Shown here piece after piece: positions 6,308 through 41,244 of a stretch of 45,768 nucleotides of DNA. How positions within the stretch are numbered: position 1 is the first letter of the stretch; the number at the start of each line of letters is the position of its first letter. The stretch covers positions 1-45,768 of the forward strand of contig MESW01000001.1 in assembly GCA_001771135.1 (NCBI GenBank). Direction: 5' to 3'. The position numbers and the translations under genes are program-made. The notes below the pieces were generated by a model. It did not search any database, was not told the origin of the DNA, and was given only the letters and a program-made list of their open reading frames with translations. The DNA is from a candidate division CPR3 bacterium GWF2_35_18. GTDB lineage: Bacteria; Patescibacteriota; CPR3; GWF2-35-18.

Positions 6308-8149
6308 TTAATTTTTAAAGCTCTTTTTATCCCGGAGAAATAATTTATCCAATTGTTTCCGACCTAATCTAACAACTACAGGTCTACCATGAGGACAAGT
6401 ATATTTCTCCTTTGTTATCTCAAATTGCTGTAATAAATTCCTCATTTCTGATATTTCAAGTTTATCTCCAGCCTTAATTGCACTTCTACAGGATAAAAAC
6501 GTCAGCATTCGTAAAGTTTTGCGATCAATTTTCCAATCTCCTTCTATTGTAAATTCTTCATGAGAAATAAGTCCGTCTAAAAAATCTCGAAATCGTGATT
6601 TTAAATTATCACTATTAAGAACTATGGGAATCTCTTTAATCAGTACTTTTTTGTCCTCAACCTCCAAACCGAAACCCAATTTTTGTAATTTATCTTTCTC
6701 TTTCAGAATAATCTCCCTTTCTGGAGAAGATAGTTCTACCTCTTCTGGAAAAAGTAACGCCTGCGTTTCTCCCTGCTTTTGCTGACTCAAATATAAATGA
6801 ATAAATTTTTCAAAAAGCACTCGTTCGTGCACTGCATGCTGATCATAGATAAATAATTCGCTACCTTTAATTTCAATAATATAAACAAAATCAAGCTGAA
6901 AAAGTTGTGATGTTGAACTATTACAACTCTCTTCTGTTTCCTCCCAAGGGAATTTTTGCGGTTCAATGTCTACAGGATTATTCTTCGCATCACTTTCTTT
7001 TAAACTTACATCACTGATCTTTTCATTAAACTCAAAGGCTTGTTTTGCCATTTTTGGCGTGACAAATTCTCTCTGATGTTCATATATAGACGGTTCTGAA
7101 AAATGTAAACGTCGTGACTGCTCAAAGACTCTCTCTACTCCGGCAGCTGGGGTTAAATCAATTTTCTCCAAAGCTTTAGAAACAGCTACTTTTACTCCGT
7201 TAAAGATAAGATCGTTCACGGCAAATTTTACCTCTTCTTTGCGTGGGTGGATATTGATGTCAATAAGATCAGCACGAATTTCAAAATTAAGAAAGAAAAC
7301 CGGATAACTTCCAATTGGTAAATACGATCCATATCCTTGTTTAACCGCGGAAAAGACTAACTTATTTGTAACAGAACGACTATTCACAATTAAAAATTGC
7401 TGATTCTTTCGAGTTCGAGAAATTCCTGGCTTTCCAAGAAACCCAGTAATTTTTAAATATTCGTGATTAAAAAGTACTGGAAGTAAATCTTGTTCTTCTA
7501 ATTCAAAAATAGACACGATCCTCTCTTTGAAACTGGAAACTGGGAGCTGAAATAATTTTTTGTTTTCATTAAACAGTTCAAAACGGATTTGAGGATGTGA
7601 CAAAGCTTCAGCAATAAAAATCTCACGGCAGTATTTTAATTCTGTATTTACTGATTTTAAAAATTTCTGGCGGGCTGGAATATTAAAAAAAATCTCAGAA
7701 ACTGTCACCGCAGTTCCCTCGGGACAACCCACCTTCTTTAACTCTCCTTTTTCTTCTCCGGAGATAGTAAAAACTGCTCCAATTTCTGTTTTCTGCTTTG
7801 TTTCAATTCTGACCTTAGAAACTGCGGCAATTGAATAAAGAGCTTCACCGCGAAAACCGAGACTATTTAAATGAAGTAAATCATCAGCCGCGCTTATTTT
7901 GGAAGTAGCATGTCTTTCAAAAGCCAACGGGAGCTCACTGCTTTTTATCCCAAAACCGTTATCAATTACTTGAATTTTGATTAATCCACCTTTTTCTAAA
8001 AAGACCTTAATAACAGAGCTTCCAGCGTCAATCGAATTTTCCAGTAGTTCTTTTAGAATCGAAGCTGGGTTTTCAACCACTTCTCCAGCAGCAATCTGTT
8101 TGATAACTTCTGGCGACAAAATTTTTATTTCCGGTATTACTATTTTCAT
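6308..8149 (-). CDS. mutL: DNA mismatch repair protein MutL (endonuclease-motif type)
   Basis: IAAGEVVENPASILKELLENSIDAG, GFRGEAL, DQHAVHERVLFE (DQHA-x2-E-x4-E), CRSAIKAG, CPHGRP. Confidence 0.96.
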   Translation of the reverse strand: MKIVIPEIKILSPEVIKQIAAGEVVENPASILKELLENSIDAGSSVIKVFLEKGGLIKIQVIDNGFGIKSSELPLAFERHATSKISAADDLLHLNSLGFRGEALYSIAAVSKVRIETKQKTEIGAVFTISGEEKGELKKVGCPEGTAVTVSEIFFNIPARQKFLKSVNTELKYCREIFIAEALSHPQIRFELFNENKKLFQLPVSSFKERIVSIFELEEQDLLPVLFNHEYLKITGFLGKPGISRTRKNQQFLIVNSRSVTNKLVFSAVKQGYGSYLPIGSYPVFFLNFEIRADLIDINIHPRKEEVKFAVNDLIFNGVKVAVSKALEKIDLTPAAGVERVFEQSRRLHFSEPSIYEHQREFVTPKMAKQAFEFNEKISDVSLKESDAKNNPVDIEPQKFPWEETEESCNSSTSQLFQLDFVYIIEIKGSELFIYDQHAVHERVLFEKFIHLYLSQQKQGETQALLFPEEVELSSPEREIILKEKDKLQKLGFGLEVEDKKVLIKEIPIVLNSDNLKSRFRDFLDGLISHEEFTIEGDWKIDRKTLRMLTFLSCRSAIKAGDKLEISEMRNLLQQFEITKEKYTCPHGRPVVVRLGRKQLDKLFLRDKKSFKN

Positions 8150-8332: not shown

Positions 8333-9589
8333 ATGAAAATTACAAATATAAAATCTTATGAAATTCTTGCCTCGGGTGGTTACCCCACGATTGAAACCAG
8401 AGTGGAACTTGATAACGGAGTGTTTGGTGTAGCATCTGTTCCTTATGGGGCTTCTGCGGGATCTCACGAAGCTACAGTTTTAACAGATAATGATAAATCC
8501 CGTTGGAATGGTAAAGGAATGTTGAAAGCTGTAAATAATATCAACAAAAAAATTACTCATCTAATTAAAGGTCTAGATCCTGAAGATCAAAGAGCTCTCG
8601 ATCAAAAAATGATAGAGGCAGACGGGACCGAAAATAAAGCTAAATTCGGCGGGAACGCAATTCTTTCTGTTTCAATTGCGGTTGCCAATGCAGTTGCCAA
8701 TGCCAAAAAAATTCCTCTTTATCAATATATTATTGATTCCTATAAAACTAGTGTTGATTTGGAAGAATTACCTCAGCCAATGGTTGTCGTTATCGAAGGT
8801 GGAAAACATGCCGATAATACTACCGACCTACAAGAATTCTGCTTTACAGCGTTAGGAAATAAAAGTGTGGCTGAAAATTTGCGCATTATCATGGAAAGTT
8901 ATCATGCCCTCAAAAATGTTTTGAAAAGTAATAATTTATCTATAAATGTCGGGAATGAAGGCGCCTTTGCCCCGAATGGAATCCCTAATAATGAAGCTCC
9001 CTTTAATTTTATGTTAGCAGCGATAAAAAATGCCGGATATGAGCCGGGAAAAGACGTTGGAATCTCTATTGATGCCGCCGCTTCAGAGTTTTTCAAAAAT
9101 GGGAAGTACCATCTCTCAATTGAAAATAAAAGTTTAAATTCAAATGAATTAATTAGTTATTATGAAAATTGGTTGCAAAAATATCCAATTGTCACAATTG
9201 AAGATATGCTCCATGAAGATGATTGGAATGCTTGGGTAAAATTAAATGAAGTTGCCAAAAAATATAAAATTGAATTAATCGGTGATGACTTAACCGTTAC
9301 CAATATGCAGAGAGTTCAAAAAGCGATTAATTTGAAGGCAATTTCCGCTGTACTTATAAAGTTAAACCAAATCGGAACTTTAACTGAAACCGTGGATTGC
9401 TGTATGCTGGCACGGAAAAATAATCTGATGACTACCACTTCTCATCGTGGCGGCGGTGAAACAAATGATACTACTATGGTGGATGTTGCCGTCGCTGTTG
9501 GTAGTCGATTTATCAAAGTCGGACCCACTCGCGGAGAACGAATTTCAAAATATAATCGCTTAATGGAAATTGAAAGAGGCTTAGATTAA
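8333..9589 (+). CDS. eno: Enolase family protein (divergent copy 1)
   Basis: [67 protein letters not shown] aaaaaggag upstream of the ATG. Confidence 0.88.
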
Positions 9590-12094
9590 CTCCATTTGTC
9601 CACTTTCATCGCGCGTCTTTTTCGCATTTACCTTCAAGGTATTCTGATTTGCTTTAAGTTTATAGAGAATTTCTTGGGCGCGTTTAATCACTGGAGCTGG
9701 AAGTCCAGCGAGCTTCGCTACTTCAATGCCATAGCTTTCCCACTCTGCTCCAGGAATAACTTTTTTTAAGAAAACAATCTCCCCTTTTTCTTTGGCAACC
9801 GCCATCTGCATATTCTTGATTTCTGAATATTTATCAGATAGAACGGTCAATTCATGATAATGAGTAGCAAACAAAGTTCGAGGTCTTTTATTCCTTTGTG
9901 AAAGAAGATACTCAATTACTGCCCAAGCAATACTCATGCCGTCAAAGGTAGATGTCCCTCTTCCCACTTCATCAAAAACAACTAAACTTTTACTGGTTGC
10001 GTTATTTAAAATATTCGCAGTTTCAATCATCTCCACGAGAAAAGTGCTTTGCCCTTCGGCTAAAGAATCTGAAGCTCCCACTCGGGTAAAAATCTGATCT
10101 GTAAGGGGAATGACTACTGAATCCGCCGGGACAAAAGATCCCATCTGTGCCATTAAAATAATCAAAGCTACCTGTCGTAAATAAGTTGATTTTCCAGACA
10201 TATTGGGACCAGTAATCAGAAGTAATAAAGAATCTTTTTCTGATATCACGGTATCGTTGGGAACAAATTGGGTATCAAGGATTAAACTCTCAACCACTGG
10301 ATGTCGACCGTTTTTAATAATGAGATCACCGTTAACTATCATCCGCGGCTTAGTATAGTTTTGAGCCTCAGCGATTTTGGATAAAGAAGTTAAACAATCA
10401 ATCTCTCCAACTCTTAAAGCAATCTCCTGTAAAATCGGTAAAAATTCCATAACCTTTTTTACGGTTTCGTTGAAAATCGTAAATTCAATTTTATTAATTT
10501 TTTCCTCAGCTTCAAAAACCTGAGATTCGCGGATCTTTAATTCTGGAATAATAAAGCGTTCGCTTGAAACCAAGGTTTGCTTCCTTACATAATTAGGAGG
10601 AACAAGGTGCATATTGGCTTTGGAAACTTCTATATAATAACCGTAAATTTTATTGGAATCGATTCTTAGTTTTTCAATTCCCGTTCTTTTACGTTCTTTT
10701 TCCTGAAGCGCATCTAAAAACTCTTTATCTCCCGAAAGTAACTGTCGTAAAGAATCGAGTTCAGCAGAAACACCCAACCTTACAAATCCACCTTCTCTTG
10801 TCGAAAACGGAGGATCTTCTTTAATTGTTTTCTCAATATAATTAATAAGCGGAATTATAAGCTTTATAAGTTTAAAAGGTAATTTGGGTTGAAGAATTTT
10901 TTCTTCAGCAAGTAACTGTGAAAGTTTAACCACATGTCGTAATGAATTTTTGAGTCCATCTAGGTCACGCGGTGAACCCAAAGAAAGTGACAAGCGAGAA
11001 ATTAATCTTTCAATATCAATAATCTCTTTTAAACTCGTTTCCACTTTTTGGCGAAAAGATTTTTTTTGAAGTAAGATCTCTACCGCATCCAAACGAGCAT
11101 TAATTTTTGACATGTCAGAAAGCGGTTGGCTTAACCATTTTCGCAGTAATCTTCCTCCCATAGCTGTGTGTGTCTGATCTAAAAGATTAAGTAATGAACC
11201 TTTTTTACTTTGACCTCTTACGGTTTTAAAAAGCTCAAGATTAGAAACTGTGGCACTATCGATTCTCAGATATTCATCTGAAAAATAGGAATCAATTTTC
11301 AGAAAATGCTGAAGCTCGCTTTTTTGAGTTTCTTTAAAATAAGTCAGTAAATTTGCTGCTGCTCCCAAGGCTAAAGGATAATTTTTAACCTCAATCCCAA
11401 AAGCTGATAAACTTTTTATTCGAAAATGGTTAAGAAGAATTTTATCACTATTTTCTACAACATGGCTCCAATCTTTCAGCATAAAGATATTCACATCTTC
11501 TTCAATCTTTGCCACCTTTAAAACATGCGGATTATCATAAAGAAGAGGCGGAAGAAGCAATTCTTTCGGTTGAACCTGACGGATCACCGAAGCCAGATCT
11601 TTTTCAAAAGAGGTAAATGACATTTCATGGATTTGGAAAATACCGGTTCCTAGATCTGCAAAAGCAAAACCCAAACTATTTTTATTTTGATTCACACATA
11701 AAAGAAAATTGTTTTCTTTCTTTTCTAAAAGTTTTTCATTTAAAACTGTTCCCGGGGTCACAATGCGAATTACTTCTCGCTCAACTAAACCTTTACTGTC
11801 ATTGGAATCAGTGGTTTGTTCCGCAATAGCGACTTTGTAACCAGCTTTAACAAGTTTGTTAATATAGTTTTCCGCAGCGTGATATGGCACTCCACACATC
11901 GGTATTTTTCCGTCCGCCCCACGCGAACGTTTGGTAAGAGTAATATTCATTAATTCCGAACCAACTTTGGCATCATCAAAGAACAGCTCATAAAAATCAC
12001 CCAAGCGGAAAAATAATAATGAATCCGGGGTTTTATCCTTAAGAGCTTGGTACTGTTGCAACATTGGAGTTTTAAACTGATTATCTAGGAACAT
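9581..12094 (-). CDS. mutS: DNA mismatch repair protein MutS
   Basis: [69 protein letters not shown]. Confidence 0.97.
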
Positions 12095-29649: not shown

Positions 29650-31380
29650 GTGAGAAATATGTCGATCTTCAAAAAAAATCTTAAATTTAAAGCCTCAAGA
29701 AAGGAGGGTTCCATGAAAACAAAAAATCGTCGCAAATCATATTTAGTTTCACTTCTCAGCATTTTGAGCGTTTCAACAATTGCTTTTCCTTCTCTTACAC
29801 TTGCCCGTACAATTGAAGGAACAGCTTTAAATCATAACACTCAAAGTGGTTCATACAATTATTCAGAAACCACAATCACCGAAGATATTATTGTTACCAA
29901 TAATAATGAAGCGGATGTCCAAAATTCGATTACCCAGACTGCAAATACTGGTTATAACACCGTAAGTTCAGTTAATGGAGATGTCTCCATTTCAACAGGT
30001 GATGCTGAATTAGTAGCTTCTGTGGAAAATAATCTGAATACGAATGAAACTACAATCTCCGGAGGCGGAGGGAACGTAGAAATTACTACCGAGAATAGCA
30101 ATACCGGAGCAAATTCTGAAAACTACTCTTACGGTACTTACGAAAGTAATACTGAAGTCTTAAATAACAATGAATTAGATGTAGACAATAGCGTTGAACA
30201 AACTGCAGATACCGGTTATAACACCATCGCCTCAGTAAATGGTGATGTGGAATTGGATACCGGAGATGCAGACTTAGAAGCTGATGTTTCCACAAGTGGA
30301 AATACGAATTCTACTGAAGTTATGGGTGGCGCGAGTGCTTCTCTTTCTGCGGAGAACAGTATGACTCAGTCAAACTCATTCAACTACTCTGATTCCTCTG
30401 CCACCGTCAATACTATGGTCGAAAATAGTAACGATGCTGATGTTGATAACGAAACTATCCAACAAGGATATAGTGGTTACAACACCATCGCTTCAATAAA
30501 TGGTGATGTCGATGCTGGAGAATCAACTGGAGATGTTAATATGTCGAGTAGTTCTAGTACTGACGTTAATCATAACTCCACACAGGTCGGTTTAAATGGA
30601 ACTAGTATTGAAATTGATACGATGAATTCCAATACTCAGTCCGACTCCGAAAACCTAGCTTTCGGCACTCTGACATTAGGATTAGAAATTGAAAATAACA
30701 ACGAACTAGATGTTGATAATTTCAATTATGCCTACGGGGACAGTGGCACAAACGTAATCTCTGATGTCAATGGAGATGTTGAACTTGATACTGGTGATGT
30801 CGAAGTAGAATCAGAATCTGAAGTTGAAGGAAACAGTTCTGAGACTGAAATTGACGGACTAGGAGACTTCTCCACGTCTGCCATGAACGAATTCACACAG
30901 TCAGATTCATTTAACTACGCTGATTCTCTAATGACACTCGCCTTGGGTGTGAGTAATGATAATGATGCTGACATCCGAAATTGCTCAGCTATCTTCGGAT
31001 ACTCAGGTTATAACCAAGGTTGGGAGATAAATGGAGACGTCGATCTCTCTTCTGGAGATGTTGACTTAATGACCTCAGTAAACACTGACGTCAACATGAA
31101 TGTCACTATGGCCGAAGAAGGTTTTGGCGACATCGAAGAAGAAACCAGCAATAGCAATACTCAATCTGATTCCGAAAACTATGCTTATGCAACAGTAGAT
31201 CTTTCTATCGAAGCGGAAAATGATAATCGTCTTCGACTCAGAAACGACCTATTCTCCATGAGCGATACTGGATATAACGTATTTTTCGACATTAACGGAG
31301 ATACCGATATTCAGGCTGGATCAGTTGAAGAAGGCTTTGAAGTAATAAATGAGGGAAATGTAAGTATAACCAATATCTAA
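29650..31380 (+). CDS. Exported repeat protein 1: about six ~88-aa TGYNTxxSxNGDVxxxTGD repeats
   Basis: Signal peptide MKTKNRRKSYLVSLLSILSVSTIAFPSLTLA; repeat anchors at 29950, 30214, 30475, 30745, 31006, 31270 (period 261-270 nt). Likely start 29659 or 29713. Confidence 0.85.
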   Translation: MRNMSIFKKNLKFKASRKEGSMKTKNRRKSYLVSLLSILSVSTIAFPSLTLARTIEGTALNHNTQSGSYNYSETTITEDIIVTNNNEADVQNSITQTANTGYNTVSSVNGDVSISTGDAELVASVENNLNTNETTISGGGGNVEITTENSNTGANSENYSYGTYESNTEVLNNNELDVDNSVEQTADTGYNTIASVNGDVELDTGDADLEADVSTSGNTNSTEVMGGASASLSAENSMTQSNSFNYSDSSATVNTMVENSNDADVDNETIQQGYSGYNTIASINGDVDAGESTGDVNMSSSSSTDVNHNSTQVGLNGTSIEIDTMNSNTQSDSENLAFGTLTLGLEIENNNELDVDNFNYAYGDSGTNVISDVNGDVELDTGDVEVESESEVEGNSSETEIDGLGDFSTSAMNEFTQSDSFNYADSLMTLALGVSNDNDADIRNCSAIFGYSGYNQGWEINGDVDLSSGDVDLMTSVNTDVNMNVTMAEEGFGDIEEETSNSNTQSDSENYAYATVDLSIEAENDNRLRLRNDLFSMSDTGYNVFFDINGDTDIQAGSVEEGFEVINEGNVSITNI

Positions 31381-31401
31381 AAACTACTTACTAGTTGGAG
31401 G

Positions 31402-31428
31402 AAGAGGGGAAAATTTTTCCCCTCTTCT
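31402..31428. terminator. Perfect hairpin GAAGAGGGGAAAA-T-TTTTCCCCTCTTC after repeat protein 1
   Basis: 27-nt palindrome, 13-bp arms, 22 nt after the stop codon. Confidence 0.8.
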
Positions 31429-31503
31429 GCTCCCTCTTTTGAAGAAAGATTATGAAAAAGACTTTCTAATTTTTCTTCAGAAAAAACAATAAAAGGAGGA
31501 AAA

Positions 31504-34008
31504 ATGAAAATCCTAAAAAAAGACTCTCTTAAAAAAACTATGAAAATTTTGACCGTTTTGGTAATAATTATTCAGTTAACAATCTTTCCAGCTCGTTTAA
31601 TTGCAGCCACAGAATTAAATAGTGTTATTCTTCCGGAAGAAAACTCTCTGAGAGAAGTTAGAGATGTCAAAGAAACCCAAGAATTAAGAGATCCTCAAGA
31701 TCCAACCCTTAATGCTGATTTAACAATAGAACAAACTGAAAGTCAGATAATCACAGAACCCTACAGTGATACCCAAAACCTAGGAGCGCTCTGTCAAAAT
31801 ACAGAGATGGATACTTCAAATAGCAATCTTTTGAGTTGTACTCCACAAGCATTTCCAGATGAACCGCTTACAATTTATAATGCTGAAATTAATTCCTCAA
31901 ACATTACCCCCACTTCTTCTGATGAAAACCAAACAAATAATTTACCCGAAGAAGAGAATTCAGTGATTATTGAATCTGAAGCTACGCAAACAGATCCAAG
32001 TAATCTTATTATAATGGAAACCGAAACCACTCCAGAAGTAATTTCAGATGAAACTCAAAACTCTCAAGACATAGTTGACTCATCTAGTACAAGTAGCACC
32101 TCAAATACTAATACTGGCGAAAATTCTTCAAATTCGGTAATTACTGACAACAGCAACACTACGGAAATAAACAACGAAAATAATCTCTCCTTAGACCAAA
32201 CTGTTGAAGTTATGGGTGATACGGGCCAGAACAATGTTGCTTATATCAATGGTGACACGGAAATTATCAGCGGTGATATAAATGAAAACGTTAATCTAAT
32301 AACGATGGCTAACACAAATATCAATGGCAACACCACACCTGCTACGACTGTCTCTTTAGATATTGTTGGAACGATGGAAGAAGATATTGATTTTAATAAT
32401 CTCGAATTACTGGGACTCCAAGAAACGAATGATTTTCTGAATGGAAGTTTGGTAAACACGAACGAAAATACCGGATTCAACTCGAAAAACACAACGGTAA
32501 CGATAGAATCCACAAATACAGACATTAAAAATTTTAATAATGCAGATCTGGCAAATGATCTCGATATTACCCTTTCAACTGGTGACAATTCCACTCAAAG
32601 CATAAATGGTGATTCCACAATTGAAACCGGAGACATTAATATGGCTGCGAATGTCGTAAACTTTGTTAATTCTAGCATTACGACTGTAGGCAACTTTGTC
32701 ATTGGCGTAATCGACATTTTTGGAACTTTAATTGGCGATATTATCCTACCCGATGCTCCGCAAACTACAACTACGACAGAAGGAACTTCTTTACTAGCGG
32801 AGAATAATAATACTGGACCAAACTCACAGAATACCAGTGAGACAAAAAGCTCCTCTACAACCTCAATTGATAACAACAATGATCTTACCCTCTCGAACGA
32901 TTTTAATATTTCTGCAGATACTGGAAGTAATGGAGTGGAGAGTATTAACGGAAATACGACAATTGACACCGGAAATGTCTACGTTGAAAGTAACACTGTC
33001 AATATTGGTAATTCTAATACTGTCGCAGATAACACTGACACTACTCAAAGCTTCTGGTTAGTTCTTATCAATAACTTAGGAACTTGGACAGGACAAATAC
33101 TAGGATTAGATTCATCGGGAAATCCGAATGACAGTATTATTGCTTATCAATTTACAGATACCGATCTCGCTTCTTTGAACGAAAATACTGGAGCAAATTC
33201 AATTAATCAAGCTAGTTCAACCGGTAGTACGACAAATAAGATAACTAACCAAAACGAGGCTAGTATTGATAACACAATTGACATCAACGCTTCAACCGGA
33301 GGAAATACCTTTACAAACAATAATGGAAATAACTATCTCGAAACCGGAGATATTAATATATTGGCGAATGTTTTAAACATCATGAATTACAATTTTGTCG
33401 GCGGCAGTTGGGGACTTCTTGTTATTAATATCTTTGGTACTTGGATGGGGGATCTAGTTGGACCGGGATATGAATATCCAGTAGCGATAGAAGATAATAA
33501 CGAAATTGAAGAAAGTATTATTCCCGATGCAATTCCTCCAGTTATCGATGATAAAATTGTAGATGAAACAACAAATCCTGTTGAGGAAGACACAACTTCT
33601 GAAACTAATAATACTTATATTCCCTCAGAAAAAATAGCTAGCAATACCCAGTCTGAAATTCTTTCTCCAGACCAAGAATCAATAAAGCCAGAAGATACTA
33701 ATACTCAAAGCAATAATGTTGTTTTGTCTCAGAATAACAACCTAAGCTATTACTCTAACCCCGAAATGAACTCTCCAGAAGTAATATTTATAACTGCCAA
33801 TATGCCATTACAAATAGGTAGTGGGACAAAACTAGACAAAGAAATTGGTACTGATTCTCTACAAGAGACAAACTCATCGACAATTTACGAAGTTGGAAAT
33901 AATAAAAACTCCGATAGTCCTTTTGTAGATTTTCTGAAAGACTATTCCCCTTTTGCCTTAATTGGAATTATGGGAATTGTTCTTAAAAAAAGAGTTTTTA
34001 ATCCCTAA
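31504..34008 (+). CDS. Exported repeat protein 2: four larger repeats with NENTGxNS..., TGDN..SINGDS.IETGDIN... cores and a C-terminal TM plus KKR tail
   Basis: 834-aa ORF; SD aaaaggaggaaaa; hydrophobic N-terminus; repeated GDTGQNNVAYINGDTEIISGDIN, STGDNSTQSINGDSTIETGDIN, ADTGSNGVESINGNTTIDTGNV, ASTGGNTFTNNNGNNYLETGDIN. Confidence 0.85.
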   Translation: MKILKKDSLKKTMKILTVLVIIIQLTIFPARLIAATELNSVILPEENSLREVRDVKETQELRDPQDPTLNADLTIEQTESQIITEPYSDTQNLGALCQNTEMDTSNSNLLSCTPQAFPDEPLTIYNAEINSSNITPTSSDENQTNNLPEEENSVIIESEATQTDPSNLIIMETETTPEVISDETQNSQDIVDSSSTSSTSNTNTGENSSNSVITDNSNTTEINNENNLSLDQTVEVMGDTGQNNVAYINGDTEIISGDINENVNLITMANTNINGNTTPATTVSLDIVGTMEEDIDFNNLELLGLQETNDFLNGSLVNTNENTGFNSKNTTVTIESTNTDIKNFNNADLANDLDITLSTGDNSTQSINGDSTIETGDINMAANVVNFVNSSITTVGNFVIGVIDIFGTLIGDIILPDAPQTTTTTEGTSLLAENNNTGPNSQNTSETKSSSTTSIDNNNDLTLSNDFNISADTGSNGVESINGNTTIDTGNVYVESNTVNIGNSNTVADNTDTTQSFWLVLINNLGTWTGQILGLDSSGNPNDSIIAYQFTDTDLASLNENTGANSINQASSTGSTTNKITNQNEASIDNTIDINASTGGNTFTNNNGNNYLETGDINILANVLNIMNYNFVGGSWGLLVINIFGTWMGDLVGPGYEYPVAIEDNNEIEESIIPDAIPPVIDDKIVDETTNPVEEDTTSETNNTYIPSEKIASNTQSEILSPDQESIKPEDTNTQSNNVVLSQNNNLSYYSNPEMNSPEVIFITANMPLQIGSGTKLDKEIGTDSLQETNSSTIYEVGNNKNSDSPFVDFLKDYSPFALIGIMGIVLKKRVFNP

Positions 34009-34024
34009 TTGAAAGGAGATTATA

Positions 34025-34999
34025 ATGAAAAGATTTAAATTAATCCCGATATTGTTTGCACTTACAGCTACTCTCATAACTTCCTACCAACCTGTGCTAG
34101 GAAAAGAGATTCGACTGGAAAGTGCGAATATAGATACCGGAAGCGGTTCTGTAAATATCTCTGAAACAACCTATGCGGAAACAATTAACGTCAGTAATAA
34201 TCATGAAGCTACAGTGGAAACGAATATCACCGCCGAAAGTAGTACCGGAAATAACGAGACTTCAAATATTAATGGAGATGTGAATCTCACAACCGGAGAT
34301 ATTGATAATAGTACAACGGTAGAAGAAACTATAAATACTGCCAACAACGTAATTTCATCAGAGATTACAAACTCAGTCGAAATTGAAACTATAAATAGTA
34401 ACACTGGAGTAGATAGTGAAAATAACACTTCGGTGAATGTGGAGCAAAACATAACGGTTTCGGATGAAAAAAGTTTTGAGAGTAGTTTACAGGTAAGTTC
34501 AAGTTCCGAAACAGGTAATAGTGTAGTCTCAAATATAAATGGTGATGTAAATGTATTTACCGGAGACGTCGGAAGCACTATCTCCGTTATTATCCAGACG
34601 AATAACGACACGATTACGCTCTCTTCTATCCCGGAAATACTTCCTCCACCATCAGACAATGATTTCCCTCCTAATGATGAAGTTACTCCTCCAATTGACG
34701 ATAATATCACTCCACCAATCATTCCCTTAGACGATAATCCTGCCGGTGGATCTGTTTTGGAAGCAGAAATTCCATCTGAAATAGCTACTAATAATCCTCC
34801 CGAAATTAGTAAACCGCCAGTTTATACTAATCCAGAAGTTAAAGGGGATAGCAGTAAAAAGAACAGTGACAAATCCATTGGCTCATTCTTGGGTATAACT
34901 GAATTACCTTTGACAGCTCAAAACAATATTCTTGGCGCTTTGCTTACAGGGGTTACTCTTGGTCTTAGCATTATTCTTAAAAAATTTTTAAATAATTAA
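34025..34999 (+). CDS. Exported repeat protein 3: two repeats, Pro-rich linker, C-terminal LPLTA + TM + KK tail
   Basis: SSTGNNETSNINGDVNLTTGDID and SETGNSVVSNINGDVNVFTGDVG; C-terminus ELPLTAQNNILGALLTGVTLGLSIILKKFLNN; SD gaaaggag. Confidence 0.85.
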   Translation: MKRFKLIPILFALTATLITSYQPVLGKEIRLESANIDTGSGSVNISETTYAETINVSNNHEATVETNITAESSTGNNETSNINGDVNLTTGDIDNSTTVEETINTANNVISSEITNSVEIETINSNTGVDSENNTSVNVEQNITVSDEKSFESSLQVSSSSETGNSVVSNINGDVNVFTGDVGSTISVIIQTNNDTITLSSIPEILPPPSDNDFPPNDEVTPPIDDNITPPIIPLDDNPAGGSVLEAEIPSEIATNNPPEISKPPVYTNPEVKGDSSKKNSDKSIGSFLGITELPLTAQNNILGALLTGVTLGLSIILKKFLNN

Positions 35000-35018
35000 T
35001 CAAAAAAGGAAACTAATT

Positions 35019-35645
35019 ATGAACCAAAAGATCTCACGAATATTAAATTACAAACAGAACCAGAATTATAGTCAGGAGGTAATAAATCCGAAGAAAACCA
35101 AATTTAACATTAAAAGAATGGGGTTACTCATCGGCGGGATCATTCTGCTTTTAGGAGTGAGTTTTACTACCTACAGTTTGATCACAAAAGCACCCTTTAT
35201 CTCAGCCTCTTCTCAAAGTAGTAAGATTAGTCGAAAAATTGATATTTATAAAACCTATACTTACAATCTAAAAACAAAAGAAGGAAATGATGCTGGTCAA
35301 TTAGTATTAAACGTTACTAATGCTGAAAAAACTGACATCGTAATGGTCAAAGGAGAAGCAATTAAGGCTCCCACGGGCAAGATATTTCTGGCAATTAATA
35401 TCGAATGGGACAATAAATCCTCTCAAAGTTTGAATGTTGATACTATCAATTATTTCCGTTATTTAAGTCCGGAAGATAAGCTATATGCTCCAGCATTTTA
35501 TAATGAAAACGTTTCAGTATCACCAATCTCTGTCCGTAATGATAAGTTGGCTTTTGTAGTTCTGGAAAATCAGAAAGATATTAAAATTCAGATAGGAGAA
35601 CTGCGAGGAACTAAAGAGATTGTCGAACTGAAATTCAATGAATGA
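35019..35645 (+). CDS. Membrane-anchored DUF4352-like protein
   Basis: N-terminal TM; GQLVLNVTNAEKTDIVMVKGEAIKAPTGKIFLAINIEWDNKSSQSL pattern; same operon as the repeat proteins. Confidence 0.6.
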   Translation: MNQKISRILNYKQNQNYSQEVINPKKTKFNIKRMGLLIGGIILLLGVSFTTYSLITKAPFISASSQSSKISRKIDIYKTYTYNLKTKEGNDAGQLVLNVTNAEKTDIVMVKGEAIKAPTGKIFLAINIEWDNKSSQSLNVDTINYFRYLSPEDKLYAPAFYNENVSVSPISVRNDKLAFVVLENQKDIKIQIGELRGTKEIVELKFNE

Positions 35646-35646
35646 G

Positions 35647-36336
35647 TTAAAAAGTGTAACTAAAAGTTGAGCGAGATAAAAACTTTTCGATTAACTCTTC
35701 TTCAAGCTGCTTATGGTCTAGAATAACTAGAAATCTTTTATCTTGATCGATTAATTTCATCTTCTTTAATTCTGAAATCTCTTTTGTTGCTGTTTCACGA
35801 CTGATACCGGCCATATTTGCAATTTCCTGATGGGTGAGTTTGATACTAATTTTTACCTGACCATTTTTATCTCTAATTCCAAATCGACTGGTAACCATAA
35901 GTAAAACCGAAACAATTCGGGTTTGAGCATTCCCAAACATCAGATGTTCGATTCTGGCCATCATTCCTTGCAGTCCAGATAAAATTCGTTGCGTAAGTTC
36001 ATAAGTAACATCTGAATTTTCTTTTAAGAATACTTGAACATTTTCAGGATTTGCGCGATACAAAGTAACGGGAGTCATAGCTTCAAAATAATAATAATTC
36101 GGATAATTAGAAAAAACCCAATTTAAAGGGAAATATGATCCTGGTTTGAAAATATTTAGAGTTAACTCTTTTCCTTCGATAGAAAGTGTATATACCCGGA
36201 CATAACCACTTTTTAAAAAGAAAACCCCCTGGGGAATATCTCCACCTCTTATGATAATTTCATTTTTTTTATACTTAAGAGAAGTAAAACGGAGAAAGAA
36301 ATTCTCAATTTTATTTTCTAAAGTAACGTTGTTCAT
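35647..36336 (-). CDS. Crp/Fnr family transcriptional regulator
   Basis: Cyclic-nucleotide-binding-like fold segment (IIIRGGDIPQGVFFLKSGYVRVY) and HTH LTHQEIANMAGISRETATKEISELKK. Confidence 0.9.
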   Translation of the reverse strand: MNNVTLENKIENFFLRFTSLKYKKNEIIIRGGDIPQGVFFLKSGYVRVYTLSIEGKELTLNIFKPGSYFPLNWVFSNYPNYYYFEAMTPVTLYRANPENVQVFLKENSDVTYELTQRILSGLQGMMARIEHLMFGNAQTRIVSVLLMVTSRFGIRDKNGQVKISIKLTHQEIANMAGISRETATKEISELKKMKLIDQDKRFLVILDHKQLEEELIEKFLSRSTFSYTF

Positions 36337-36466: not shown

Positions 36467-37036
36467 TCAATTTATTTTCAGAATATAAATATCAGTTTTT
36501 TCTTCAAAACCTTTTAAATGAAATTTTCCTTTGTATGTAAATAAAGATTTATCTTTAATTCCCAATCTTTTGTAAGTATGACTCGTGATCAAAAAATTAG
36601 ATTTTATAGAATGACTTAAATTCTCACTTCTGCAAGCCTCAATAATACCATCTCCGACTAAAGTAAAAACATTTATATTATTGTTTATAATATTTTTACT
36701 TACAATCTTTCCAGAACTTATTCCAATTTTTAAGTCAAAGGGAATATTCTGTTTTGGTAAATCATGAAAAATCTGAAGCCCAAACTTTATTGCATGTTGA
36801 GCATGATTCTGCCCCCAAAAAAGAGATCCTAAACCATCTCCTAAAACATCTATTACTCGACCATGATATTTATAAGCAAGAGGAATAATCCAATTATAAT
36901 ATGTTGTAAGATAATTCAGAATTAATTTTAAATTATGTTCATGAACGAAATTACTATAATGAGAAAGATCACAAAAAACATAAGAGCCTTTTCTTATTGT
37001 TGTCGGAATGTCCTTATACGGATTTTTATATAACAT
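36467..37036 (-). CDS. Class III adenylate/guanylate cyclase-like domain protein
   Basis: VFCDLSHYSNF, YHGRVIDVLGDGLGSLF, LKIGISSGKI, FTLVGDGIIEACRSENL correspond to class III cyclase catalytic motifs. Confidence 0.75.
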   Translation of the reverse strand: MLYKNPYKDIPTTIRKGSYVFCDLSHYSNFVHEHNLKLILNYLTTYYNWIIPLAYKYHGRVIDVLGDGLGSLFWGQNHAQHAIKFGLQIFHDLPKQNIPFDLKIGISSGKIVSKNIINNNINVFTLVGDGIIEACRSENLSHSIKSNFLITSHTYKRLGIKDKSLFTYKGKFHLKGFEEKTDIYILKIN

Positions 37037-39904: not shown

Positions 39905-41152
39905 TTACCTGATTCCTAACTCTCTCTCAATCCAAAGTAATCGGTTATACTTGGCAATTCTCTCTCCACGACAAGGCGCTCCACTTTTTATCTGTCCACA
40001 AGCAGAAGCCACACAAAGATCAGCAAAAAAAGAATCTTCAGTTTCTCCTGCGCGTTGAGAAACCATTGCTTGAATTTTATTCTCGGACGCAATTTTTAAA
40101 GACTCCACCGTCTCGGAAACTGTCCCCACTTGATTTAATTTAATCACAATCGAATTGGTAGCCTTACTTCGAATTCCTTTTTGTAATAAACGCGGGTTGG
40201 TAGTGTAAAGATCATCTCCTACTACCTGAATTTTATCTCCCAAGGCGGCCGTCATTTTTTGAAATCCCTCCCAATCATCTTCATAAATAGCATCTTCAAT
40301 GGAAAAAATCGGATAATCATTAATAAGATTCTGACAATATGAAATCATCCCTTGTGTATCCAAAACTTTATCATCTTTTGGAAGATAATATTTTCCTTGC
40401 TTGTAAAACTCGCTGGAGGCTAAGTCTAAAGCAATTTTAATATCTTTTCCTGGAATAAATCCCGCTCTTTCGATGGCTAAAACTAACATTTCTAAAGGTT
40501 CTTCATTGGAGCAAACTTTACCCGCAAATCCCCCTTCTTCTCCAACCGTTAAGGACCAACTTCTCTTTTTCACAATCTCTTTAAGACAGTAATAAATTTC
40601 TAAAGCAATCTCCATTTTTTCGGCAAAATTATTACCCGCAAAAGGAGCAATCATGTATTCTTGAAAATCAGAAGAATAATCGGCATGTTTTCCACCCTCA
40701 ATAAAAACCATTAAAGGAATTGGAAGTTTTAAACCATTTATTGGGAAAAAGGTTTTTAAATATTTATAAAGAGGAATTCTTTTACTTAAAGCTGCCGCTT
40801 TTGCAACTGCCATTGAAACAGAAAGAATTGCGTTACCACCTAATCTTTTCTTATTCGGAGTCCCATCAAAATCAATCATTTTTGCATCAATTTCTGGCTG
40901 ATTCTCAACATCCATTCCCATAATTTGAGGCGCAATCACTTTTTCCACAATATGTACTGCATCCCGAACACCTTTTCCACGAAGTCTTCTACCACCATCT
41001 TTTAGCTCTAAAGATTCATGATTTCCATAAGAAGAACCTGAAGGATAATCGGAAAAACTAACAATTCCATTCTCAAGAGTTAATCTAACTCCTATAGTTG
41101 GATATCCTCGTGAATCATAGATCTCTTGTGCTTGGATGGCAGTGATTTTCAT
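39905..41152 (-). CDS. Enolase family protein (divergent copy 2; catalytic-loop His replaced)
   Basis: IYDSRGYPTIGV, GGKHADYSSDFQEYM, VGEEGGFAG, SIEDAIYEDDWEGF, VGDDLYTTN, VIKLNQVGTVSET, SQRAGETED, IKSGAPCRGERIAKYN. ATG 41152 preferred over 41167. Confidence 0.88.
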   Translation of the reverse strand: MKITAIQAQEIYDSRGYPTIGVRLTLENGIVSFSDYPSGSSYGNHESLELKDGGRRLRGKGVRDAVHIVEKVIAPQIMGMDVENQPEIDAKMIDFDGTPNKKRLGGNAILSVSMAVAKAAALSKRIPLYKYLKTFFPINGLKLPIPLMVFIEGGKHADYSSDFQEYMIAPFAGNNFAEKMEIALEIYYCLKEIVKKRSWSLTVGEEGGFAGKVCSNEEPLEMLVLAIERAGFIPGKDIKIALDLASSEFYKQGKYYLPKDDKVLDTQGMISYCQNLINDYPIFSIEDAIYEDDWEGFQKMTAALGDKIQVVGDDLYTTNPRLLQKGIRSKATNSIVIKLNQVGTVSETVESLKIASENKIQAMVSQRAGETEDSFFADLCVASACGQIKSGAPCRGERIAKYNRLLWIERELGIR

Positions 41153-41244
41153 AATTTTCAAAAACATTTTGAGGTTATCAGATCAAGGTGTTTCTTTGAG
41201 GTCAACATTGTTTTTCAAAATGGCTCTCCAAAAACCCATCTTTC

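Follow-up and report, generated by a model that had tools for sequence, protein, structure and literature searches.

The window analysed here, a stretch of 45,768 nucleotides from the candidate division CPR3 bacterium GWF2_35_18, carries a locus that, judged from its genes alone, is probably a previously unrecognised cell-surface coat or fibre system of CPR bacteria. Three adjacent genes encode repeat proteins (P1, P2 and P3), and a DUF4352-like gene (P4) follows them. All four open reading frames lie on the + strand within 29650-35645, where the earlier note had placed them, and the features of the locus are as follows.

29650..31380, + strand: P1, secreted repeat protein, 576 aa as listed; predicted signal peptide, six tandem repeats, no C-terminal anchor, pI ~4
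29821..30057, + strand: P1 repeat 1 (repeat HMM)
30082..30321, + strand: P1 repeat 2 (repeat HMM)
30346..30588, + strand: P1 repeat 3 (repeat HMM)
30613..30852, + strand: P1 repeat 4 (repeat HMM)
30877..31107, + strand: P1 repeat 5 (repeat HMM)
31141..31377, + strand: P1 repeat 6 (repeat HMM)
31504..34008, + strand: P2, 834 aa; N-terminal hydrophobic signal, long low-complexity linker, four repeats, C-terminal low-complexity linker, short hydrophobic C-terminus plus KKR
32095..32328, + strand: P2 repeat 1 (repeat HMM)
32455..32688, + strand: P2 repeat 2 (repeat HMM)
32695..32751, + strand: P2 conserved hydrophobic insert after repeat 2 (VIGVIDIFGTLIGDIILP)
32797..33021, + strand: P2 repeat 3 (repeat HMM)
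33049..33093, + strand: P2 conserved hydrophobic insert after repeat 3 (FWLVLINNLGTWTG)
33172..33396, + strand: P2 repeat 4 (repeat HMM)
33409..33453, + strand: P2 conserved hydrophobic insert after repeat 4 (WGLLVINIFGTWMGD)
34025..34999, + strand: P3, 324 aa; predicted signal peptide, two repeats, proline-rich linker, LPLTA-hydrophobic-KK C-terminus
34118..34354, + strand: P3 repeat 1 (repeat HMM)
34385..34618, + strand: P3 repeat 2 (repeat HMM)
34904..34999, + strand: P3 sorting-signal-like C-terminal region (LPLTA, hydrophobic stretch, KKFLNN; LPxTG in many orthologues)
35019..35645, + strand: P4, DUF4352-like protein, single N-terminal membrane segment

Membrane segments were called by hydropathy. 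The gaps between P1, P2, P3 and P4 (123, 16 and 19 bp) are consistent with a single operon; promoter and terminator scans at the locus gave scores no higher than those of shuffled sequence. Translation of P1 probably starts at ATG 29659 (preceded by AAAGGAGGTGAGAAAT) or ATG 29713 (preceded by AAAGGAGGGTTCC) rather than at GTG 29650, as the GTG falls within the first Shine-Dalgarno, a strong one, and each ATG has a Shine-Dalgarno of its own.

The repeat was detected with a profile HMM that was first built from the window proteins and their relatives and then rebuilt on 648 repeats from other genomes only. This window-free model finds six copies in P1 (227.7 bits), four in P2 (159.8 bits) and two in P3 (64.4 bits), whereas the best of 300 shuffles per protein reached -1.8 bits and no other open reading frame in the window exceeded 1.1 bits. 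A whole-genome search returned 12 copies, all of them in P1, P2 and P3. The repeat is ~80 aa long with a period in P1 of ~88 aa, and the copy numbers and 88-aa period given in the earlier note agree exactly with this independent model. Its approximate consensus is N-x-x-TG-x-x-S-x-N, a variable strand, and then I-x-N-x-N-x-A-x-I-x-N-x-V-x-x-x-A-N-TG-x-N-x-A-x-x-N-TG-x-x-x-I-x-TGDA; the repeat proteins are acidic, with a strong Asn/Ser/Thr bias. P1, P2 and P3 had no significant match in Pfam, NCBIfam or PHROGs and no sequence relative in the PDB, profile search included, which bears out the earlier impression that they belong to no named family. Nor is the family described in any paper that we found. 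By sequence, none of the libraries searched contains the repeat, P2 or the gene set, and a new Pfam family could be proposed for the ~80-aa repeat.

To characterise the fold, mean-field coevolution was computed on 809 repeats (effective number 682). The strongest antidiagonals, i+j = 103 and i+j = 105, held 10 and 9 pairs above z 1.5 with summed z of 39.5 and 31.6; every other antidiagonal summed to at most 12, and no dominant parallel diagonal was seen in these repeats. Coevolution thus defines the repeat as a long antiparallel beta-hairpin, in which positions 31-48 pair with 55-73 around an NTG tip at 50-54. From a weaker antidiagonal at 59-60, positions 8-27 also seem to run antiparallel to 31-48. 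The coevolution hairpin agrees with the strands of the AlphaFold2 model of P1, which was built with 54 relatives (mean pLDDT 82.2, pTM 0.68) and is confident and all-beta over residues 50-576, with a strand pattern alike in all six repeats. On order versus disorder, for which the earlier note had looked to AlphaFold, P1 is thus predicted to be an ordered, all-beta protein. The P2 core was modelled as four similar modules, with pLDDT ~90-95 in the cores and lower values in the linkers. Foldseek searches of the PDB with the P1 and P2 models gave no match below E 0.001, the matches for P1 having E >= 0.14 and TM <= 0.09. Two viral Foldseek matches under E 0.001 were discarded (TM 0.06-0.08, rmsd ~40 Å). 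The only signal in profile autocorrelation was the two-residue alternation of beta-strands, without a clear coil length. Coevolution likewise gave no sign of one repeat stacking on the next: same-column coupling of adjacent repeats is strong, yet it is equally strong between repeats two or three apart, and common ancestry explains it.

In a sample of 59 genomes from the phylum, 6 contained relatives of P1, and a search of 380 genomes (313 genera) recovered the repeat from 41 (39 genera). A scan of 84,980 species for the hydrophobic motif of P2, confirmed by tblastn, returned 79 loci; being keyed on this motif, it could miss P1- or P3-like repeats outside CPR that lack a P2. All informative record titles among the 79 are CPR except one labelled Rhodoglobus, several being titled only 'bacterium', and the lineages comprise Levy-, Woese-, Gottesman-, Davies-, Ames-, Chisholm-, Nealson-, Staskawicz-, Moran-, Portnoy-, Shapiro-, Roizman-, Wirth- and Saccharibacteria, and CPR2. 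Searches of viral contigs, phages and plasmids found no relatives.

Gene order was compared over 74 P2 loci, from which all locus rates are quoted, as a larger set of 104 loci holds some genomes twice. Directly upstream of P2 lies an unanchored repeat gene (P1) in 65 of the 69 loci with enough upstream sequence to test, at a median gap of 106 bp, and a further repeat gene (P3) begins within 300 bp after P2 in 40/74. The synteny among CPR relatives that the earlier note proposed to look for is therefore present. Clustering of flanking genes, with no partners assumed, yielded three recurrent families: the P4/DUF4352-like family (46/74), a sortase (39/74) and P5, which is small and exported. At its most complete, the locus reads P5 - P4 - P1 - P2 - P3 - sortase - convergent two-repeat gene. 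Many Microgenomates carry the small exported protein, DUF4352-like protein, P1, P2, P3 (with LPxTG) and sortase in that order; Saccharibacteria mostly have a minimal pair of P2 and a two-repeat P1, and Wirthbacteria have the P4-P1-P2 set twice. The recurrence of the P4 family supports its earlier assignment to the locus, although it usually sits upstream of P1 and in the window lies 3' of P3. P4 resembles DUF4352 proteins (PF11611) below the Pfam threshold of 25.9 bits, scoring 22.2 bits (23.0 bits for a relative), and its family is a separate CPR subfamily that has a membrane segment at the N-terminus and is tied to this locus.

Of the three repeat proteins, P2 has the most constant layout. 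Its orthologues have four or five recognised repeats in 68/74 loci, most repeats are followed by a hydrophobic segment of the VNxFGxWxG type in a fixed order, and the protein ends in a hydrophobic segment. P2 forms one orthologous family, seen only in CPR/Patescibacteria, and its fixed layout makes it a usable marker. NCBIfam models for BAC, BimA, GltJ and TonB matched some P2 proteins (1-3 of 58 members), probably through their proline-rich linkers. P1 and P3 vary more, with 2-6 and 1-3 repeats, and the C-terminus of P1 carries neither an anchor nor LPxTG in the window and in nearly all relatives.

The earlier note had read the ends of P2 and P3 as transmembrane segments with positive tails. 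That both are anchored relatives of P1 is supported, but the end of P3 has the layout of a sortase signal, and the C-terminal stretch of the window P2, SPFALIGIMGIVL-KKR, is short and falls under the hydropathy cut-off (it is full-length in most orthologues). Many P3 orthologues end in LPATG or LPVTG and a membrane segment, and many thus combine the C-terminal LPxTG, hydrophobic segment and positive tail of sortase-anchored surface proteins. The window motif, LPLTA, is degenerate, and several relatives, some Woesebacteria among them, have an LSDTS-like motif in its place. The gene following P3 in relatives encodes a sortase domain (PF04203; E 5e-22 and 2e-23). In 38 of 44 cases, drawn from the 104-locus set with its double-counted genomes, no more than ~75 bp separate its start from the repeat gene before it, and the linked sortases (50 sequences) keep the catalytic His in 100%, Cys in 94% and Arg in 94%. 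Neither the linked sortase nor the LPxTG signals of P3 had been picked up in the earlier note. The window's genome has two PF04203 genes, both on another contig. Since a sortase is found in 325 of 380 genomes of the phylum (86%), its mere presence was dropped as evidence and only adjacency was taken as informative.

Based on these features, we propose that free P1 is held by anchored P2 and P3 in a fibre or coat, a mechanism that we consider about evenly poised between right and wrong, polymerisation being an inferred step. P1, P2 and P3 would be exported by their signal peptides, and each repeat would fold into the long antiparallel hairpin, with a further strand alongside, indicated by coevolution and AlphaFold. 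P3 would then be joined to the wall by sortase, as its LPxTG-type signal and the sortase next to it in relatives imply, while P2 would be kept in the membrane by its C-terminus, with its extra hydrophobic VNxFGxWxG segments lying between the repeats. As P1 has no anchor, it would most likely be retained by packing on the homologous repeats of P2 and P3, giving a beta-rich fibre or coat. P4, which crosses the membrane once and bears a DUF4352-like domain on the outside, may aid export or assembly. In favour of assembly we count the single repeat common to one unanchored and two anchored proteins, the place of P1 next to P2 in 65 of 69 testable loci, the orthology and repeat layout of P2, the adjoining sortase with its catalytic residues, the LPATG/LPVTG tails of many P3, the recurrence of the P4 family, and the all-beta AlphaFold model and coevolution hairpin. 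Against it we count the missing stacking signal in coevolution, the low share of genomes with the repeat, the commonness of sortases in the phylum, the position of the window's sortases on another contig, and the LPLTA and LSDTS-like motifs in the window and in several relatives.

The same genes could instead encode separate adhesin stalks or a loose coat, in which P2 and P3 expose their repeats on the cell while P1 is released as a decoy, as matrix or as a host-binding protein, without any fibre. Repeat numbers that vary freely in P1 and P3, as in stalks of varying length, fit this well, as do the acidic, Asn/Ser/Thr-rich surface and the absence of inter-repeat coupling beyond ancestry. The retention of P1 beside P2 in nearly all testable loci is, however, hard to explain without an interaction between them, and we regard this possibility as rather doubtful.

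It is improbable that the locus specifies a pilus of the Gram-positive type, with pilins joined covalently by a class C sortase. An LPxTG substrate adjoins a dedicated sortase in both systems, and among NCBIfam sortase classes the linked enzyme is nearest class C, but its 68 bits fall far under that model's cut-off of 160. Furthermore, the likely major subunit, P1, lacks a sorting signal, which P3 alone carries, and the predicted fold had no match among solved structures.

Less probable still is that annotation has overlooked a genuine functional amyloid of the curli or Fap type, or some other parallel beta-solenoid. In curli, adjacent genes encode homologous repeat proteins, the free subunit CsgA and the surface-attached CsgB, and the CPR locus shares this arrangement of adjoining genes, homologous repeats, and free and attached members. 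The repeats are also Asn/Gly/Thr-rich, and FapC (E 1.6) and CsgA (rank 22, E 1.2) occur among the non-significant Foldseek matches. The curlin-type or beta-solenoid likeness suggested in the earlier note was nevertheless not supported: Pfam gave no curlin match in P1-P3 or 55 P1 relatives, the PDB profile search returned neither CsgA nor FapC, and Foldseek found no beta-helix match of meaningful TM-score. Curli are parallel beta-solenoids with ~20-residue rungs, in contrast to the antiparallel hairpin of the CPR repeat, and are secreted through an outer membrane, whereas sortase and membrane anchoring are proposed here. That the proteins are low-complexity, largely disordered exported linkers with repeats arising from composition, as their Asn/Ser/Thr bias might suggest, is the least credible explanation, because same-composition shuffles never score, the AlphaFold model is confidently all-beta and orthologous repeats are conserved among CPR lineages.

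For the proposed assembly of free P1 on anchored P2 and P3, the closest known arrangement appears to be that of the chaplins. In Streptomyces, anchorless, secreted short chaplins and sortase-anchored long chaplins, in which the domain is repeated, are thought to co-assemble and so tether the layer (PMC5618241). By analogy, P1 and P3 would be the unanchored and sortase-anchored members with a common domain, with the sortase adjacent in relatives. The chaplin domain itself (PF03777) had no match in P1-P3 (E<=1) or in 55 P1 relatives (E<=0.05), and the CPR locus differs in its unrelated ~80-aa repeat, in its added membrane-anchored third family (P2) and DUF4352-like partner, and in a linked sortase that scores nearer classes C/D than class E. 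Surface assemblies that pair free with anchored relatives and are linked to a sortase are a known kind of system; new here are the repeat, P2 and the gene set. In dividing labour between free and anchored members, the proposed assembly would parallel short and long chaplins, or CsgA and CsgB, while using a repeat unrelated to theirs.

The genomes of CPR bacteria are tiny, and an attached life on other cells is assumed for many of them; to our knowledge, genes are known for few of their surface structures. An operon that is conserved yet unnamed, with three repeat proteins, a dedicated sortase and a fixed partner, is a concrete surface-structure candidate for CPR. Tentatively, and with the balance against it, the locus may define a CPR-specific class of filament or coat, made of P1 hairpin repeats, seeded by membrane-anchored P2 and fixed to the wall through sortase-linked P3. 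Pili-like appendages and periodic layers in CPR are usually ascribed to type IV pili or S-layers. By microscopy, CPR cells have been seen to bear pili-like appendages and a surface layer whose periodicities are 3.8 and 10 nm (PMC7906910). If the proposal is true, such a filament or coat could explain some of these appendages or periodic surface layers.

Two genes on the minus strand directly adjoin the surface locus in the window, and further genes of interest lie on either side:

35647-36336 (-), CRP-family regulator
36467-37036 (-), adenylate/guanylate cyclase-family nucleotide cyclase
8333-9589 (+), enolase
39905-41167 (-), enolase
6308-8149 (-), MutL, full
9581-12094 (-), MutS, full

Relatives of the CRP-family regulator also adjoin P2, the membrane-anchored repeat protein, in two other loci (L093 and L172), and this recurrent placement hints that the surface system may be under cyclic-nucleotide control. 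Elsewhere in the window, the two enolases share 45% identity with one another, and the presence of both in one 1.1 Mb genome is unusual for a genome this small. This small CPR-type genome also carries full MutL and MutS.

Further members of the cassette were found in relatives. P5, an exported protein of about 160 residues with no match in Pfam, lies upstream of the DUF4352-like P4 in about 40 of the 104 loci (for example, L117 5441-5935 and L112 6099-6584). At many loci a convergent protein of about 200 residues with two repeats is encoded, often downstream of the sortase at a distance of several hundred bases (for example, L094 11499-12119, minus strand). In Wirthbacteria, the set of P4, P1 (the unanchored repeat protein) and P2 occurs twice in tandem (L095 5536-14832; L095 and L022 are one record), a natural duplication of the cassette. 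A P1-P2 pair of the Saccharibacteria type was seen on a contig labelled Rhodoglobus sp., an actinobacterium (L165), which is probably mis-binned.

In some sortase-linked P3 proteins, mostly from Woesebacteria, LSDTS- or LSKTS-like motifs replace LPxTG:

L105 11709-12878
L108 9650-10813
L120 9746-10930
L128 9849-11003
L126 1707-2906
L103 9803-10954

These motifs could be a variant sorting signal, altered jointly with its sortase. In the window's own genome, one of the two sortases has beside it an open reading frame whose C-terminus is of the LPETG type (contig 2, near 55233-55658; L029), so sortase anchoring is probably of wider use in this genome.
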